Below are positions 1-6,600 of a stretch of DNA of 7,391 nt, one piece after another. The notes below the pieces were generated by a model that had not been told where the DNA came from, did not search any database, and worked only from the letters and a program-made list of their open reading frames with translations. The stretch lies in assembly GCA_023433185.1 (NCBI GenBank), contig JAEZEN010000337.1, forward strand, positions 1 to 7,391. The letters run 5' to 3'. This DNA is from Pseudomonadota bacterium. GTDB lineage: Bacteria > Pseudomonadota > Alphaproteobacteria > Rhizobiales > Kaistiaceae. How positions within the stretch are numbered: position 1 is the first letter of the stretch; each line of letters opens with the position of its first letter. The translations under genes and the position numbers were made by a program.

Positions 1-332
1 TCGGCATCCGCCCCGAGTTCGGCAACGATAAAGGGTACGCGCTGGGCCATGAGCCCGGCGATGAAGGCGACGTCGCGCGAGAGCCGATCGAGCTTGGCCA
101 CAATCACCGGACACTTGCCGGTCTTGCCGGCCGCCAGCGCTGCGGCGAGTTGCGGTCGCCGCTCCAGGGCGTCCGCGCCCTTGCCGGTCTCGACGTCGGT
201 GAACTCGGCAATGAGCGTGTAGCCCTCCGCCTCTGCGAACCGGGCGACTGCAGCGCGTTGGGCTTCGATCCCGAGCCCCGACTTGCCCTGCCTGGCGGTG
301 CTGACCCGGTAGTAGGCGACGGCATGTTGCAT
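1..332 (-). CDS. Serine recombinase (resolvase/invertase family), N-terminal part, cut by the window edge
   Basis: This is the first 110 residues of a site-specific serine recombinase, which cuts and rejoins DNA through a covalent phosphoserine intermediate. The N-terminus reads [12 protein letters not shown], and Ser11 in YYRVS is the expected nucleophile. [13 protein letters not shown] follows, then the conserved KLDRLSRD motif carrying the active-site arginines. This is the resolvase catalytic domain in its usual order. The C-terminal part, which would separate a small resolvase from a large integrase, lies outside the window. The start at 332 is supported by GGAGGG (344-349), although its spacing of 11 nt is rather long. 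The gene points left, away from the other genes, and follows an AT-rich intergenic region. It may be the recombinase of the element or belong to a neighbouring transposon. The family call is secure; the exact role is not. Confidence 0.9.
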
Positions 333-363
333 GGCGACAAGAACCCTCCGCTTCAGTACAGAC

Positions 364-372
364 AGCATACCA
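364..372 (-). promoter_or_regulatory. Possible extended -10 promoter of the recombinase
   Basis: On the minus strand this reads TGGTATGCT, which fits an extended -10 (TG-N-TATNNT) 31 nt upstream of the recombinase start. I see no convincing -35 at 17 nt. The surrounding DNA is clearly more AT-rich (28 of 60 G+C in 361-420) than the flanking genes. This is a motif match only. Confidence 0.25.
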
Positions 373-373
373 C

Positions 374-410
374 CGTTTGCCGTTTGTACGTAGCGCAAGT
401 CATTGGCAAA
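374..410. repeat. Short direct and inverted repeats in the AT-rich intergenic region
   Basis: CGTTTG occurs twice in tandem (374-379 and 381-386). TTTGCC (376-381) pairs with GGCAAA (405-410) across a 23-nt spacer, and the palindrome TACGTA lies at 387-392. The location directly upstream of a serine recombinase makes a recombination (res or att) site or an operator possible. Repeats this short can occur by chance. The rest of the 333-420 intergenic stretch holds nothing else I recognise, and I see no terminator hairpin with a T tract. Confidence 0.25.
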
Positions 411-420
411 TAAGGATAAT

Positions 421-1722
421 CTATTGAGAGGGAACGTCTCCAGAGGCCGGCTGGGCGAGATTGCTCCCACCATGGAGATCGAAGAGTTGGTTGGCGTTGT
501 CGCTCAAGATCTTCGGGGCGAGCCGTCTGGCGTCGGTGGCCGTGAAATACCCGCCGGCCACCTTCTCTTCGAGAACCTCACCCAGGATGCTGCGCGCCAG
601 GGTCATGGCTCCATAGGTCTCCTCGACGTGCCAGTTGTCCCCACCGATCATCATCCGCCCCTCATCCGGCAAGACCTCGATCGCTTCGTGGAGGGTGGCC
701 TTGAACAAGGTCGGGCTGAGAAGGGGGGCCCAGCAGAGATCGATCCAGACATTGCGATAGATCAGAGCCATACCGAGCAGATCGCGCGCCCAGGGGTATG
801 CGAGATGCATGAGAAGGAAGCGGGTGCGGGGATGCCGCTCGACCAGGCCGGCGACGTTCATGGGGTGCGACCCACGAATGATCGCGCTACCGAGATGCAT
901 CTGCATCGGGAGGTCGTGCTCGGCGGCGAGCCGACAGAACCGGTCTACGACAAAATCGCTGAATGCCTTCTGCTCCTCAGTCGAAGGAGAAACCTTGCCC
1001 CAGGCCGCGCGGGCCGCCTCCACCTGCGGAGCGTCGAAGTCGAGGTGGCGGTCGTAGGCAAGAGCATTCTTGAGCGCCACCTGGTGGCGCCCCCGCGCCT
1101 GGATGACGAGGCTGTCGAGCAAGTCGACATAGTCGTCGAAACTCTGTGGTCGAGCGCCCAAACGGCCGAGAATTTCGAAGGCACAGGTTCCATTGTGGTC
1201 CTTCGCTTCCGGATTCCAGCCGCAGGCAAACGCGTTGATGCGGAGCACCGACAGATGTCGGTCGCTGATTGCGGTGTGCGCGTCGATCATCGGATCGACG
1301 TACGGATCTGTGATGACGCGGCTCACCTGCGCCCGATCTAGAATCTCCAACCACCCGCCGGGACGCGCGTGCTGAGCGCGTACCTGGGCGTCAAGGCGCT
1401 GCCAGTTGTCGGGGGTGATCGACCTTTCGCCTTCCCCATAGAGCTGGGTGACGGAACGGACGAGATTTCGCACGAAGGAATTCGAGCCGCTCGCCATCAG
1501 GTAGGGCGCGAGCGCATCCCAACTCGTCGGCGCTGACGGCGGGTCCGGCAGCATCGGAGGCTCGGAAGGAAGGGCGAAGGTCCTTCGTCTCGTCCACGCC
1601 GCATAGCTCTCCGAAAAGATGCGGAGGAGATCGACCTCGGGGGCGTCTACTACGCCGGCGAAGTGATGCTCGTGGACGTCGACCATAGGCAGGCCATCAA
1701 CGAAAGTGCGAAGCTCGGTCAT
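421..1722 (-). CDS. Amidohydrolase-superfamily metal-dependent hydrolase (Amidohydro_2-like TIM barrel)
   Basis: This 433-residue cytosolic enzyme of the metal-dependent TIM-barrel hydrolase superfamily has no signal peptide or membrane segment. The N-terminal metal motif D15-V-H17-E-H19 is the DxHxH signature. Other expected barrel ligands follow in order: H276 (MQMHLG), H306 (FLLMHLAYP) and D362 (MIGGDNWH). K218 in [10 protein letters not shown] could be a strand-4 lysine ligand. The C-terminus has the usual [10 protein letters not shown] helix, so the domain looks complete and intact. The substrate cannot be told: this group includes decarboxylases, lactonases and uronate isomerase-like proteins. 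The start at 1722 begins [10 protein letters not shown]; no strong Shine-Dalgarno is visible upstream, so a start a few codons away is possible. It follows the phage-like block by about 100 nt and precedes the recombinase, so it may be cargo or flanking chromosomal DNA. Confidence 0.88.
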
Positions 1723-2141: not shown

Positions 2142-2555
2142 TCACGAGTCGGACTGGCTCGGGTCCACCGGCTTCAGTTCGATCAACGGCCTGACGCAAA
2201 CATCGAGTTCACGAATCCGCGCCTCCAGCTCCGCGTCGGTCATCTCACTCGCCGGCTTCACCGCGACCTCGTGGGACTGCGGGGTCTCGCGCCAGCCACC
2301 GCGGGTCTTCATCCAGAAGATGGCCGCGGTGACGCACTGGTGGCCCTCGGTGGTGGCCTTGCGGAACAGGAACTCGGCGACCTTGGCCGTGGCCTTGGTG
2401 GCGCCGAGGTCGAGTTCGTCCCTGTAGTGCTTGCGCAGCGTCTTGGGGTCGATCCCCACGACGCGGCCAATGTCTGTCTCGGGGACGCCATAGGCGGCGA
2501 GCGCCTCGACCTGGCGGCGGCCGCGTTCGTCTGGAAGATGCGCGCGGCGGCCCAT
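2142..2555 (-). CDS. Helix-turn-helix protein, tandem copy E (fifth and last)
   Basis: This 137-residue protein is the most downstream of five paralogues. The core (residues 1-90) opens with MGRRAHLPDERGRRQVEALA. An HTH at about residues 23-45 (VPETDIGRVVGIDPKTLRKH) is followed by the family block KVAEFLFRKAT and VTAAIFWMKTRGGW. The tail has an acidic, possibly helical stretch (EMTDAELEARIRELDV). It is likely a small DNA-binding protein resembling phage terminase small subunits; that function is inferred from the HTH and phage-type context. The frame stays open upstream, but the ATG at 2555 matches the conserved MGR(R/P)AH start of every copy and sits two bases after the stop of copy D (TGACCATG). 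GGAG lies 11 nt upstream. This copy departs from the others at LGATKATAKV, where they have GHIKAN or similar. Confidence 0.85.
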   Translation of the reverse strand: MGRRAHLPDERGRRQVEALAAYGVPETDIGRVVGIDPKTLRKHYRDELDLGATKATAKVAEFLFRKATTEGHQCVTAAIFWMKTRGGWRETPQSHEVAVKPASEMTDAELEARIRELDVCVRPLIELKPVDPSQSDS

Positions 2556-2557
2556 GG

Positions 2558-2980
2558 TCAGCGCCGCTCCGGGATGTGCTCGATGATCGGCGGCCCGACC
2601 GGCACCGGCTTGCCCATGGGGCGGCCCTCGGCATCGCGGGGCGGTGGCTCGACGATGGTGCGGATGATGACCGTCGGATACGCGGAGGCATTCGGCTCCT
2701 CGACCGGGTTTTCCTTCCATCGGGCCCGGGTCTTGAGCCAGAAGATGCAGGCGGTGACGGACTGGGGACCGTCGCCCATGGCCTTCCGGTAGAGGCTCTC
2801 TGCGATGCGGCTGTTGGCCTTGATGCTGCCGGTATCGAGCTCGTCGCGGTAGTGCTTCCTGAGCGTCTTCGGATCGATGCCGAGGACGCGGGCGATGTCG
2901 GCCTCGGGGATACCGTAGGCGGCCATGGCCTCGACCTGTCGGCGGCCGGCAGGTTCGGGTGTATGCGCTCGGCGACCCAT
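2558..2980 (-). CDS. Helix-turn-helix protein, tandem copy D
   Basis: This 140-residue paralogue has a core beginning MGRRAHTPEPAGRRQVEAMA, with the HTH at IPEADIARVLGIDPKTLRKH and the conserved FWLKTRARWKE ending the core. By hand count it matches copy C at 79 of the first 90 residues, the closest pair of copies I compared. The tail (residues 91-140) is different: Pro-rich and hydrophobic (YPTVIIRTIVEPPPRD, later PVPVGPPIIEHIPERR). The ATG at 2980 overlaps the stop of copy C by one base (TGATG), which predicts translational coupling. GGGAG 8 nt upstream supports this start over the much longer open frame to 3187. A DNA-binding role is inferred from the HTH; the target is unknown. Confidence 0.87.
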   Translation of the reverse strand: MGRRAHTPEPAGRRQVEAMAAYGIPEADIARVLGIDPKTLRKHYRDELDTGSIKANSRIAESLYRKAMGDGPQSVTACIFWLKTRARWKENPVEEPNASAYPTVIIRTIVEPPPRDAEGRPMGKPVPVGPPIIEHIPERR

Positions 2981-3447
2981 CAGTGGCGCTCCCGCCCCTG
3001 GCGGGGACGCTGGCTGAAGTCCTCGGCGACCAGCTGGCGGCTTGGTGCAGGATCGGAGCCCATCGCGCCGTCGATCTCGGCTTGCGGGCGATCGTGGATG
3101 CGCCGTCCGTGCTCGGCGATGTGCCGAAACAGATCGGCGATGGGGTCGCGGGTGATGCTGACCTCGCTGATCGTCGTCTCCTTCCATCGGGCGCGCGTCT
3201 TCAGCCAGAAGATCGTCGCCGTTACCGCCTGCGGGCCGTCCCCCATCGCCTTCTTGTAGAGGTTCTCCGCCATCCGGCTGTTCGCCTTGATGTGCCCGGT
3301 GTCGAGTTCGGTGCGGTAGTGGCGACGGAGGGTCTTGGGGTCGATCTCCATGACCCGGGCAATATCCGCTTCGGGGATGCCATAGGCAGCCATCGCCTCG
3401 ACCTGCCGACGGCCTGCTGGCTCGGGGGCGTGCGCGCGGCGGCCCAT
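2980..3447 (-). CDS. Helix-turn-helix protein, tandem copy C
   Basis: This 155-residue paralogue has the core MGRRAHAPEPAGRRQVEAMA, the HTH IPEADIARVMEIDPKTLRRH, then KAMGDGPQAVTATIFWLKTR. It differs from copies D and E at the HTH turn (MEID where they have GID). Its charged tail of about 65 residues (SITRDPIADLFRHIAEHGRR onward) is not shared with D or E. The start at 3447 lies two bases after the stop of copy B (TGACCATG), with GGAGG 11 nt upstream. Its own stop overlaps the ATG of copy D. Family and function are as for the other copies: likely DNA-binding, possibly terminase-small-subunit-like. Confidence 0.87.
   Translation of the reverse strand: MGRRAHAPEPAGRRQVEAMAAYGIPEADIARVMEIDPKTLRRHYRTELDTGHIKANSRMAENLYKKAMGDGPQAVTATIFWLKTRARWKETTISEVSITRDPIADLFRHIAEHGRRIHDRPQAEIDGAMGSDPAPSRQLVAEDFSQRPRQGRERH
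2989..2993 (-). promoter_or_regulatory. Ribosome-binding site of copy D
   Basis: GGGAG lies 8 nt upstream of the ATG at 2980. It decides this start against the longer open frame that runs to 3187. Confidence 0.6.
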
Positions 3448-3449
3448 GG

Positions 3450-3902
3450 TCAGGAGCGCCTCCGGCTGGCGGGATGCGGCAACATCTTCACGACATCGCC
3501 CGCAATGGCGTCAGAGGAACCGGCATCCCGCAACTGCGACCGCGCGATCAGCATCGCAATGGCACTCAGCCTTCGGGCGTCGGCAATGGCATCCCCGGGG
3601 TCCGTCGCATCGGTCACCTCGTGGACGGTGGTCTCCTTCCACCGGGCGCGGGTCTTGAGCCAGAAGATCGCTGTGGTAACCGCCTCGCGGCTCTCGCCGG
3701 TTGCCCGGCGATAGAGGTTCTCCGCGACCTTGGTGTTCGCCTTGATGTGGCCGGTGTCGAGTTCCCGGCGGTAGTGGCGCCGCAGCGTCTTGGGATCGAT
3801 CGCGATCACCGTCGCGATGTCCGTTTCGGGAATGCCATAGGCGGCCATCGCCTCGACCTGGCGGCGCTGGACGGGATCGGGCTTGTGGGCGGGTCGTCCC
3901 AT
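3450..3902 (-). CDS. Helix-turn-helix protein, tandem copy B
   Basis: This 150-residue paralogue has the core MGRPAHKPDPVQRRQVEAMA, the HTH IPETDIATVIAIDPKTLRRH, then NLYRRATGESREAVTTAIFW and LKTRARWKE. The tail is Ala-rich and probably helical (DAIADARRLSAIAMLIARSQ) and ends in a basic ASRRRS. The frame is open far upstream, to 4607, but the conserved MGRPAH start at 3902 has GGGGAG at a spacing of 7 nt and sits two bases after the stop of copy A (TGATCATG). The upstream extension would read out-of-frame methyltransferase and copy A sequence, so I reject it. Confidence 0.87.
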   Translation of the reverse strand: MGRPAHKPDPVQRRQVEAMAAYGIPETDIATVIAIDPKTLRRHYRRELDTGHIKANTKVAENLYRRATGESREAVTTAIFWLKTRARWKETTVHEVTDATDPGDAIADARRLSAIAMLIARSQLRDAGSSDAIAGDVVKMLPHPASRRRS

Positions 3903-3904
3903 GA

Positions 3905-4372
3905 TCAGGCTCCCCTTCGATTGGAGATCGTCTGGACCGGTCCCGGCAGGGCGAGGTCGCCGTCGATCACGTTGAGGCCGCGGTTGCCCGGTGGGCCATC
4001 CGCCTGCACGTCGGGTTGCGGCTCGGACCGCGGCTTCTCCGTCGGCCCCTTCCATGTGACCGTGATGCTGGGAGGCGGCCCCGCCATCTCGGTGACCTGG
4101 GTCTCCTTCCACTGCGCCCGTGTCTTCATCCAGAAGATCGCGGCGATGACGGACTCCCTGCCGTCGCCGGTCGCCTTCCGGAAGAGGTTCTCCGCAACCT
4201 TGGCATTCGCCTTGACGTGGCCAAAGCGGAGTTCCTGGCGGTAGTGTTTCCGGAGCGTCTTGGGATCGACGCCGACCACGCCGGCAATGTCGGCCTCCGG
4301 CACGCCGTAGCCGGCGAGGGCCTCGACGTTCCGTCGGCTCATCGCGGTCGGCTCGTGGGCGGGACGTCCCAT
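3905..4372 (-). CDS. Helix-turn-helix protein, tandem copy A (first, most divergent)
   Basis: This 155-residue protein is the first of the five paralogues and lies directly behind the methyltransferase gene. The core is MGRPAHEPTAMSRRNVEALA, with the HTH VPEADIAGVVGVDPKTLRKH, then KVAENLFRKATGDGRESVIA and FWMKTRAQWKE. It matches copy B at about 61 of the first 90 residues by hand count, clearly more diverged than the C/D pair. The tail carries PSITVTWKGPTEKPRSEP, then a Pro/Gly/Asp-rich end. That first tail segment recalls TVIIRTIVEPPPRD in copy D. The start at 4372 is fixed by a strong GAGGAGG 7 nt upstream and follows the methyltransferase stop by two bases (TGACCATG). Confidence 0.87.
   Translation of the reverse strand: MGRPAHEPTAMSRRNVEALAGYGVPEADIAGVVGVDPKTLRKHYRQELRFGHVKANAKVAENLFRKATGDGRESVIAAIFWMKTRAQWKETQVTEMAGPPPSITVTWKGPTEKPRSEPQPDVQADGPPGNRGLNVIDGDLALPGPVQTISNRRGA
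3910..3915 (-). promoter_or_regulatory. Ribosome-binding site of copy B
   Basis: GGGGAG lies 7 nt upstream of the ATG at 3902, inside the end of copy A. It decides this start against an open frame continuing to 4607. Confidence 0.65.
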
Positions 4373-4374
4373 GG

Positions 4375-6600
4375 TCAGGCCTCCTCGGGGATCGTGAGGG
4401 GCCGCAGATCGTCGGCGGGAAGCGACAGCGCGAGGTCGGGGGCCGCGCTGGTCGTGGAGGCGCTGTCGCGAGGGCAAGGGATGCCGCGCTCCGATGCCAC
4501 TTTCGCGAACGCGACACCGGTCCCTTCAAGGATAGCCGTCTCGCCGGCAAAGTCCTGCCAGCGCCGGATGGCAACATCGACATAGGCGGGGTTGAGCTCG
4601 ATGGCATGGCAGGGCCGGCCGGTCATCTCCGCCGCGATGATCGTGGTGCCGGAGCCGGAGAAGGGCTCGTATACCGCCTGGCCCGGCGCAGAGTTGTTCT
4701 CGATCGGCCGCTTCATGCACTCCACCGGCTTCTCGGTGCCGTGGCCGGTGGGATTGCGACGATGCGGGATCTGCCAGACCGTCGTCTGGTTGCGGCCACC
4801 GGCCCAGTGGCCGGTCTTCCCCTTCCGGACGGCGTACAGGCAGTTGTGGGTGATGAGCCCGTCGGCGACGTAGTGCAGGTCCTTGTCGACGTCGAGCGAA
4901 TAGACCGGGCCGCTGAACGGCGTCGCGTCATTCCCCGTGATCGTCACCCACGCAAACTGATCGCCTTCAACCGGCATCGGGATCTGCATGATTTGCGCAT
5001 GGACATTGCACGCCCGAATGAGCCGGGTCGTCTTGCGCGAGAACATCAGGTTCTCGCCCGCGGTGATGAGCGGGTGGTCGCGCTCGAGGCGGTGATCGCG
5101 AAGAAGAAGCGTTGCCCGGGCGTCGAGAGCGCTCAAGTTCAGGCTGGAGTAGATCGAGGCGATCAGTTCCGAGGTCCGGACGCGACCTGGGTCGGCCCAT
5201 CGATCGACCTCCCAATGCGTGGTGGGTATACCGTACCGGCAAGAAAGGGTCTGCTCTGCACACTGGGCCTCGCACACCGAGTCATGGACTGAGACGATCC
5301 AGGCCTCTTCGGCCTTGTTGTCGGCGAGGCGCGTCGCGAGACCGAAGCCTCTGGAGTTGAACAAGCTCACGCGCCCGACACGCCACCAATCTCCGCGGCG
5401 CATGACATAGACGACCTGCTTGCCGGCTGCGTCGGGATTGAGGCGCACCGAGAAGCGATGCTCCGGCGTCGCACGGGTGACCCGTCCGGCGGCGGAAATC
5501 GTGTGAAGGAGTCCGTCGAACTGACGCTCGCCGAAACGGGTGATCTCGCGTCCCCGACGGCGCACGACGCTCTCATAAGGATTGTACGACACCACGTAGT
5601 CGCCCTCGCGCAGGGTCTCGATCGGCACCTCCTCGATCCTGGCGGGCTGAGAGCCGGCGCTGCGCTCGACGACCTTCTGGACCATCGTTCCAGCAGGCTG
5701 ACACGGCTCATGCTGCCAGTGATAATCGCCGCGGCCGATGACGAGCCGCATCTTGTCCCAGATGATGACGGAACGGACGGCGAAGCCGCAGGCCTTGAGG
5801 CCCTGGGCAACGGTGGTGGCGTGCAGGGCCCCGTGCCAGACATAGGCGACATCGCCGGGGAAGAGGGCCCAGGCTTCCCGCCAGTCGGCCCGGTCGTCGT
5901 TGAGGACCTTCCCCTTCGCGATCACCGAGCCGTCGGTGAGGCCGGCGCTCTCGCGCCAGCCGGGATCGTAGTTCACGCCGTAGGGCGGGTCGGTGACCAT
6001 CAGGTGGGGACGAACGCCGGCAAGGACACGATCCACGTCCTCCTTCCGGGTGCTGTCCCCGCAGAGCAGGCGGTGCCGGCCGAGCAGCCAGACGTCCCCC
6101 ATTTGGGATACGGGCGTCTCCGGGACCTCCGGCACGTCGTCGGGATCGGTCAGGCCGGCCTTGCCGGTGTTGAGGAGCCCCGCGATCTCCTCGTCGCCGA
6201 AGCCGGTGAGCGACAGGTCGAAGCCCAGGTCCCCGAGATCACCGATCTCCAGCGCCAGCAGCTCCATATCCCAGCCGGCGTTGAGGGCGATCTTGTTGTC
6301 GGCGAGGATGTAGGCGCGCTTCTCGGCCTCGCTCAGCCCGTCCAGCTCGATCACCGGCACCGTCGTCATGCCGAGCTTCCGGGCGGCGAGCAGGCGGCCA
6401 TGGCCGGCGATCACGCCGTTCTCCCCATCGACGAGCAGGGGGGTGGTCCAGCCGAAGGCCCGGATCGAGGCGGCGATCTGCGCGACATGCGCCTCGTCGT
6501 GGGTCCGCGCATTCTTCGCGTAGGGGATCAGGTCGCCGATCGGGCGGTAGGTCACCGCCAGCGGCCGATTCTCCGGGGCGAGGTCAGGAGCGACGGTCAT
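4375..6600 (-). CDS. ParB-domain/DNA methyltransferase fusion (beta-class, N6_N4_Mtase) containing an intein
   Basis: This is a 741-residue precursor, predicted to be 454 residues after splicing. Residues 17-110 form a ParB/Srx-like domain (YRPIGDLIPYAKNARTH, then VIAGHGRLLAARKLG and the AYILADNKIALNAGW block). The methyltransferase follows: motif IV DPPY at 204-207, then motif I VYEPFSGSGTT at 643-653 with HAIELNPAYVDVA. The order IV then I is beta-class, and DPPY favours N6-adenine methylation; the target sequence is unknown. Residues 300-586 are an intein (separate entry) lying between these motifs. Joined exteins read DYHWQHEP + CLYAVRKGK, a continuous family-like segment. The start at 6600 has GGAAGAGG 7 nt upstream and overlaps the preceding stop (ATGA). 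Such fusions occur in prophages of alphaproteobacteria, often near terminase genes. Its likely role is modification of element or host DNA. Confidence 0.93.
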   Translation of the reverse strand: MTVAPDLAPENRPLAVTYRPIGDLIPYAKNARTHDEAHVAQIAASIRAFGWTTPLLVDGENGVIAGHGRLLAARKLGMTTVPVIELDGLSEAEKRAYILADNKIALNAGWDMELLALEIGDLGDLGFDLSLTGFGDEEIAGLLNTGKAGLTDPDDVPEVPETPVSQMGDVWLLGRHRLLCGDSTRKEDVDRVLAGVRPHLMVTDPPYGVNYDPGWRESAGLTDGSVIAKGKVLNDDRADWREAWALFPGDVAYVWHGALHATTVAQGLKACGFAVRSVIIWDKMRLVIGRGDYHWQHEPCQPAGTMVQKVVERSAGSQPARIEEVPIETLREGDYVVSYNPYESVVRRRGREITRFGERQFDGLLHTISAAGRVTRATPEHRFSVRLNPDAAGKQVVYVMRRGDWWRVGRVSLFNSRGFGLATRLADNKAEEAWIVSVHDSVCEAQCAEQTLSCRYGIPTTHWEVDRWADPGRVRTSELIASIYSSLNLSALDARATLLLRDHRLERDHPLITAGENLMFSRKTTRLIRACNVHAQIMQIPMPVEGDQFAWVTITGNDATPFSGPVYSLDVDKDLHYVADGLITHNCLYAVRKGKTGHWAGGRNQTTVWQIPHRRNPTGHGTEKPVECMKRPIENNSAPGQAVYEPFSGSGTTIIAAEMTGRPCHAIELNPAYVDVAIRRWQDFAGETAILEGTGVAFAKVASERGIPCPRDSASTTSAAPDLALSLPADDLRPLTIPEEA
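4380..4386 (-). promoter_or_regulatory. Ribosome-binding site of copy A
   Basis: GAGGAGG lies 7 nt upstream of the ATG at 4372, within the last codons of the methyltransferase. It is the strongest Shine-Dalgarno of the array and fixes the start of copy A. Confidence 0.7.
4843..5703 (-). other. Intein (287 aa) inside the methyltransferase gene
   Basis: This in-frame protein-splicing element covers precursor residues 300-586. Block A starts at Cys300 (CQPAGTMVQKV), followed by the Hint-type IETLREGDYVVSYN. Block B holds T378-P-E-H381 in GRVTRATPEHRFSV, the TxxH catalytic motif. Block F is VYSLDVDKDLHYVADG and block G ends LITHN with His585-Asn586, followed by Cys587 as the +1 nucleophile. All residues needed for class 1 splicing are present. 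It is longer than a mini-intein (about 130-150 aa) yet lacks a recognisable LAGLIDADG pair. The central region (about 395-560) is an insert with a YGIP motif and unclear function. It splits a conserved methyltransferase segment, so activity should depend on splicing. Sampled lines are lower in G+C (58-65%) than the exteins (67-73%), consistent with later insertion. Splicing itself is inferred. Confidence 0.93.

Follow-up and report, generated by a model that had tools for sequence, protein, structure and literature searches.

A 7,391-nucleotide stretch of DNA from a Pseudomonadota bacterium of the family Kaistiaceae (contig JAEZEN010000337.1; this whole stretch is called the window) carries a gene for a phage-type ParB/N6_N4 DNA methyltransferase (MTase) that is interrupted in frame by an intein. 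Very probably this is a mobile class 1 intein at a conserved MTase site, which homed in with its own +1 Cys codon by gene conversion (+1 being the first residue after the insertion). Inteins need Cys, Ser or Thr directly after the insertion, and the insert seems to carry its own splicing cysteine on moving, so that it is well suited to testing how inteins spread.

The 741 amino acid (aa) product matched the phage DNA methyltransferase family phrog_498 (E 1.9e-138) and Pfam N6_N4_Mtase (E 2.5e-16). The features of phrog_498, a ParB-like N-terminal domain followed by DPPY and FxGxG in beta-class order, are present; the ParB_N match (residues 32-84) was below the Pfam cut-off. A previous sequence-only reading of the window had placed an intein at residues 300-586, between the MTase motifs IV and I. 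These boundaries proved exact, and DPPY (motif IV, residues 204-207, window 5980-5991, minus strand) and FSGSG (motif I, residues 647-651, window 4648-4662, minus strand) flank the insert. The intein has the N-terminal Cys, the T..H of block B, the C-terminal His-Asn and the +1 Cys, and the class 1 splicing residues (N-terminal Cys/Ser, T..H, His-Asn and +1 Cys/Ser/Thr) were found in 55-56 of the 56 unselected carriers described below. The TIGR01443 match was above the cut-off and a Hint fold was predicted; an AlphaFold2 model from 17 inteins at 78-85% identity had a predicted local distance difference test score (pLDDT) of 39.5 and was not used. Motifs, predicted fold and intein-free relatives support the assignment of the insert as a class 1 intein of a ParB/N6_N4 DNA MTase. 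In pairs unsaturated at silent sites the ratio of nonsynonymous to synonymous divergence (dN/dS) of the intein was about 0.1 (0.104/1.03 for the window and L004, 0.022/0.212 for L011 and L009; dS was saturated in many other pairs), a value indicating that the intein is maintained and not decaying.

The best Foldseek E-values for the predicted intein were those of bacterial intein-like (BIL) domains, and the top row of VIA-align was a hedgehog Hint, which would suit another kind of Hint domain, bacterial intein-like or hedgehog-like, that cleaves without ligating and leaves the gene broken or its product in separate pieces. However, DnaB inteins reached the same Z within 1, Asn and +1 Cys were both kept in 55 of the 56 unselected carriers, and the insertion is exact and in frame at a conserved site in 27 loci; we regard this alternative as highly improbable. 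Since the insert parts motifs IV and I, the unspliced precursor is probably inactive, and methylation would then depend on splicing, as the sequence-only reading proposed. This would also fit conditional splicing, responding for example to redox state or temperature, by which the intein would act as a switch of the MTase instead of being a plain parasite, but 62 of 121 relatives do without the intein, among them one that shares a Mesorhizobium genome with an intein-bearing copy (see below), and such a role is very unlikely.

To define the distribution of the insert, the query and the best 120 of 7997 matches were combined into a set of 121 proteins. The insert was present in 56, whereas 62 had no insert and joined gaplessly at HEP|x; three were incomplete. 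The sequence-only reading had expected the join to read HEP|C. Its position was borne out, in most cases with a different residue behind it: +1 was Ala in 47, Met in eight and Cys in seven of the intein-free proteins, compared with Cys in 55 of the 56 carriers. Both intein ends were found in 29 of the 31 loci read (L001-L031; L027 and L028 were partial). Twenty-seven of the 29 inteins were in this MTase, one in the UvrD-type helicase of phage SPO1 and one in a Thermobispora AAA ATPase. The MTase loci came from viral contigs, Alphaproteobacteria and other Proteobacteria, a Streptococcus suis prophage, a Providencia plasmid, and metagenome-assembled genomes of Phycisphaerales and Acidobacteriota. 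The intein matched 61 of 50,697 phage records (Streptococcus 15, Bacillus 13) and four plasmid records; the SPO1 and Thermobispora inteins, used as queries in viral scans, detected no relative. A draw of 398 genomes from the phylum to which the Mesorhizobium genome belongs contained 212 with some MTase match; among the matches listed, only that of the Mesorhizobium genome itself, the centre of the draw, ran through the intein.

Some loci had unusual architectures. In Seohaeicola saemankumensis (L028:5398-6801) one frame fuses the MTase up to about residue 139 with the intein from about residue 146 (query 445); motif IV and the first half of the intein were lost through an internal deletion that kept the frame. 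The proteins P0178, P0181 and P0236 (893-1112 aa) have an apparent second Hint/intein further down the same MTase, clearest in P0178. P0213 (974 aa) is an in-frame fusion of a serine recombinase (Resolvase, Recombinase and zinc ribbon) with the end of the MTase that has the intein. On the Providencia rettgeri plasmid, the intein-bearing MTase is encoded by an open reading frame (ORF; L019:3001-3858) to which no gene corresponds in the PLSDB table.

Empty and occupied alleles were found together in Mesorhizobium sp. YM1C-6-2. The intein-free copy (contig C4) is identical to P0110, and the extein pieces of the intein copy (contig C14) are 91-94% identical to it. In the first 60 nucleotides past the site the sole difference between the two is the +1 codon, which reads GCC where the site is empty and TGC where it is occupied; of the last 12 nucleotides on the N side three differ, all silently. 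On the simplest reading the intein would have supplied its own +1 Cys. Ala predominates in intein-free relatives, which makes the reverse direction, with the intein lost and +1 changed to Ala, the less likely one. Import of its own +1 residue by an intein is described as speculation in a previous report (PMC11855218). With the Ala/empty and Cys/intein alleles side by side in one genome, this idea is directly testable.

The extein tree, a quick tree of 113 rows (five of 118 were omitted for short exteins), required four changes of intein presence, at least three of them forced by well-supported branches, compared with 37.4 on shuffled labels. The window enzyme paired with the intein-free P0044 (support 87) in a 66-row group (support 99) consisting of 62 intein-free rows and four carriers. 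In 10 of 19 proteins the intein was closer to that of the window than the extein was (82.6% versus 58.4% identity for P0012). Of the junction residues of the window, Cys at +1 is shared with 54 and Ala at +4 with 49 of 55 other carriers, whereas eight intein-free sisters have Ala at +1 and Cys at +4; beyond +4 the window extein is sister-like. The junction looks like a short gene-conversion tract. These comparisons suggest that the intein is mobile and probably entered this gene recently from another MTase allele by homing, and that homing probably co-converts the +1 residue needed for splicing.

The Hint halves are separated by a unit with a predicted beta-beta-alpha-beta-alpha fold. In 113 rows hand-picked from proteins passing the intein-end filter, Y99, R108, G110 and W135 were present in all, R125 in 111 and E150 in 112, and Y, G, R and E were invariant over 20 segments taken from six MTase, 13 UvrD-type helicase and one ATPase intein. 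Tyr, Gly, Arg and Glu fall in this order on beta1, beta2, helix 1 and helix 2, and the order Y, G, R, E is that of GIY-YIG nucleases. Comparison of the 20 segments with 29 members of PF01541 by hhalign aligned 64 columns with a score of 22.8 (probability 26.6%), higher than all of 60 column shuffles (best shuffle 20.0). An earlier comparison with PF01541 had given 19.4, with 14.8 for the best slice outside the central domain, and the comparison with helicase rows gave 17.1, the Arg being on the family position there. The T5orf172 and MUG113 sets were not distinct from shuffles, and the earlier comparison had likewise yielded no match to either. Pfam scans of nine inteins, six helicase proteins and the 20 domain segments yielded neither a GIY-YIG nor another nuclease model for the central domain. 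No named family was found when PDB sequences were compared with the 20-row profile or when consensus strings were searched, apart from one weak contact to DUF2797 (E 0.083) that we do not interpret. With the whole intein as query, no GIY-YIG chain was among the best 50 rows of Foldseek or VIA-align, which were filled by the Hint fold, and a pattern search found no LAGLIDADG motif in the window intein.

Taken together, these observations lead us to infer the following course of events. A class 1 intein sits at the conserved site of the MTase. Splicing would follow the standard route (Cys1 thioester, transfer to the +1 Cys, and cyclisation of Asn287 aided by His286) and convert the 741-aa precursor into a 454-aa MTase and the 287-aa intein. 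The intein would have entered recently by homing from another MTase allele, with the inserted GIY-YIG-like domain as the most likely driver. In the process the donor's +1 Cys codon, here as far as about codon +4, would have been carried by gene conversion into a recipient with Ala at +1, which would have made splicing possible in the invaded allele.

Several points weigh against parts of this explanation. That intein hidden Markov models (HMMs) would recognize the insert held for TIGR01443 (see above) and not for Pfam Intein_splicing, whose match was below the cut-off. The extein tree has many open forks, with a long-branch warning elsewhere, and does not separate three gains from many losses. 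The Leu at +2 of the window is unlike the residues of its sisters (Ile, Ala) and of most carriers (Trp), being found in some carriers such as L008 and L025. In Mesorhizobium the differences are in excess on the N side (P about 0.07, not significant alone). The YIG tyrosine is absent from its canonical place (WRVG in the window, Y/F/W-R/K-V/I-G in relatives), and in the alignment with score 22.8 Tyr, Gly and Glu fall on family positions and Arg125 does not; the central domain is GIY-YIG-like and is not called a member of the family, its kinship being unproven. Finally, in 9 of the 19 proteins (P0045 to P0246), which are more distant, intein and extein identities were about equal or reversed, as under vertical descent; the older spread is therefore not all recent. 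If the intein still splices and is no longer mobile, it would be inherited with the gene, its central domain would only aid folding, and the patchiness would come from many losses. That reading is counted within the splicing intein and overlaps with the explanation preferred here; it gains from the many relatives at that depth that all carry the intein, and from the central domain matching no nuclease family HMM. On the other hand, the intein was closer than the extein in the other 10 proteins, near-identical flanks occur with and without the intein in one genome, and the central domain retains its Y in 113, its G in 113, its R in 111 and its E in 112 of 113 rows (pre-filtered for intein ends). 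Loss of mobility is accordingly judged unlikely.

The points most deserving of specialist attention are the allele pair of the single Mesorhizobium genome, the altered +1 residue and the unusual central domain, which, if it is a GIY-YIG nuclease, would be a new nuclease class for inteins. The sequence-only reading had noted neither the +1 change nor the signs of mobility nor the unusual nature of this domain. Given the intein-free relatives, this enzyme, in which an insert parts the catalytic from the S-adenosylmethionine-binding motifs, is also a clean splicing model.

The features of the gene and of its surroundings are collected in Table 1. Directly behind the MTase are five tandem paralogous ORFs (window 2142-4372, minus strand, 137-155 aa), which have about 95 N-terminal residues in common and unlike tails. 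ORFs covering four of the five copies matched phrog_309 (terminase small subunit; E 4e-15 to 2e-17), the second copy being outside the scan. Of L001-L047, searched with one copy, L004 and L021 had two copies and L015 a single one. One phage relative has just one gene of this kind, ahead of terminase and portal. No large terminase follows the tandem ORFs within the window; further downstream (window 3-1722, minus strand) there is an amidohydrolase-like ORF (421-1722) as well as the beginning of a serine recombinase (3-473). Because these downstream genes are not phage packaging genes, the region looks like a prophage remnant or hybrid junction.

Table 1. Positions of the MTase gene, its intein and the adjacent tandem ORFs in the window
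Feature	Position	Strand	Remarks
ParB/N6_N4 DNA MTase gene with in-frame intein	4375..6600	-	741 aa
N-extein, residues 1-299, with ParB-like domain	5704..6600	-	phrog_620, E 1.1e-52
Intein, residues 300-586	4843..5703	-	287 aa
Intein block B, TPEH	5458..5469	-	
Central domain, intein residues 96-157	5233..5418	-	beta-beta-alpha-beta-alpha, GIY-YIG-like; Y99, WRVG 107-110, R125, E150
Intein blocks F and G with HN and +1 Cys	4840..4908	-	TIGR01443 match, residues 565-587
+1 Cys codon	4840..4842	-	Ala in the eight nearest intein-free sisters examined
C-extein, residues 587-741	4378..4842	-	contains FSGSG
Tandem paralogous ORFs	3905-4372, 3450-3902, 2980-3447, 2558-2980, 2142-2555	-	

Phages also have the MTase without the intein. 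In MW202613, for example, the enzyme belongs to the same family and is 65.7% identical to the window extein; it is followed by a TerS-like gene, a terminase gene and a portal gene. Phage AcaML1 was considered as a case of a split methylase gene and rejected, its annotation giving two adjacent methylase genes.

The central domain shares with the GIY-YIG nucleases (PF01541, T5orf172, MUG113) the order of Y, G, R and E and that of strands and helices. It differs from them in lying inside an intein, in having W/F/Y-R/K-V/I-G in place of YIG and in matching no HMM of the family. According to a 2006 survey, GIY-YIG was not found in inteins (PMC1564403), and a putative free-standing GIY-YIG nuclease between split-intein halves has been reported (PMC7891396). 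We found no report of a GIY-YIG domain inside an intein in the open-licence literature searched, which is weak evidence of absence.

The intein of the SPO1 UvrD-type helicase gp34.33, labelled as such in its record, is homologous over the full length of the window intein (31.5% identity, 100% coverage), starts with CQPAG, ends with THN and has a central domain with Y, G, R and E. It differs in its unrelated host gene, its +1 Ser and its length (275 versus 287 aa). When the MTases were scanned with a profile of the UvrD C-exteins (+2 to +8) built from 14 of the 17 helicases P0122-P0138, the intein site had a median rank of 0.45% of positions for the 87 distant carriers, against 0.9% for the 62 intein-free proteins and 1.2% for the 55 near carriers; the best of 57 other stretches of the same helicases reached 8% over the 87 distant carriers. 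With 24 residues around the site (12 per side), the MTase site ranked only 1-77 in 61 intein-free proteins; since it is not distinct with both flanks, the likeness is confined to the C side and does not extend to the N-exteins. An ectopic jump of the intein between the unrelated genes is plausible from these sequences, the alternative being that splicing demands certain C-side residues. More tentatively, and with some doubt on our part, the family as a whole may home by an embedded GIY-YIG-type nuclease in place of a LAGLIDADG one and pass between UvrD-type helicases and ParB-MTases through look-alike sequences behind the site, overwriting the +1 Ala with its own Cys and thereby invading sites unable to support splicing.

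The sequence-only reading had known of no intein at this site in a ParB-MTase. This stands for the allele, of which no prior report was found in the same literature; its novelty is reduced because inteins in phage DNA methylases have already been published, in DNMT-1 and DNMT-2 of mycobacteriophages (PMC5050341) and in the actinophage methylase family of Dorothy_75 (PMC9957025). According to these two papers, the inteins resemble that of the window in having a phage N6_N4-type methylase as host, in being patchy and in having moved between divergent methylases. Neither Mycobacterium nor Gordonia was named among the 60 listed of the 61 phage records that matched the window intein. The Dorothy intein, as described there, has 327 aa with a LAGLIDADG endonuclease, in contrast to the 287 aa of the window intein, which is without that motif. 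The window intein is sound; its host gene is of a known kind and the allele is new.
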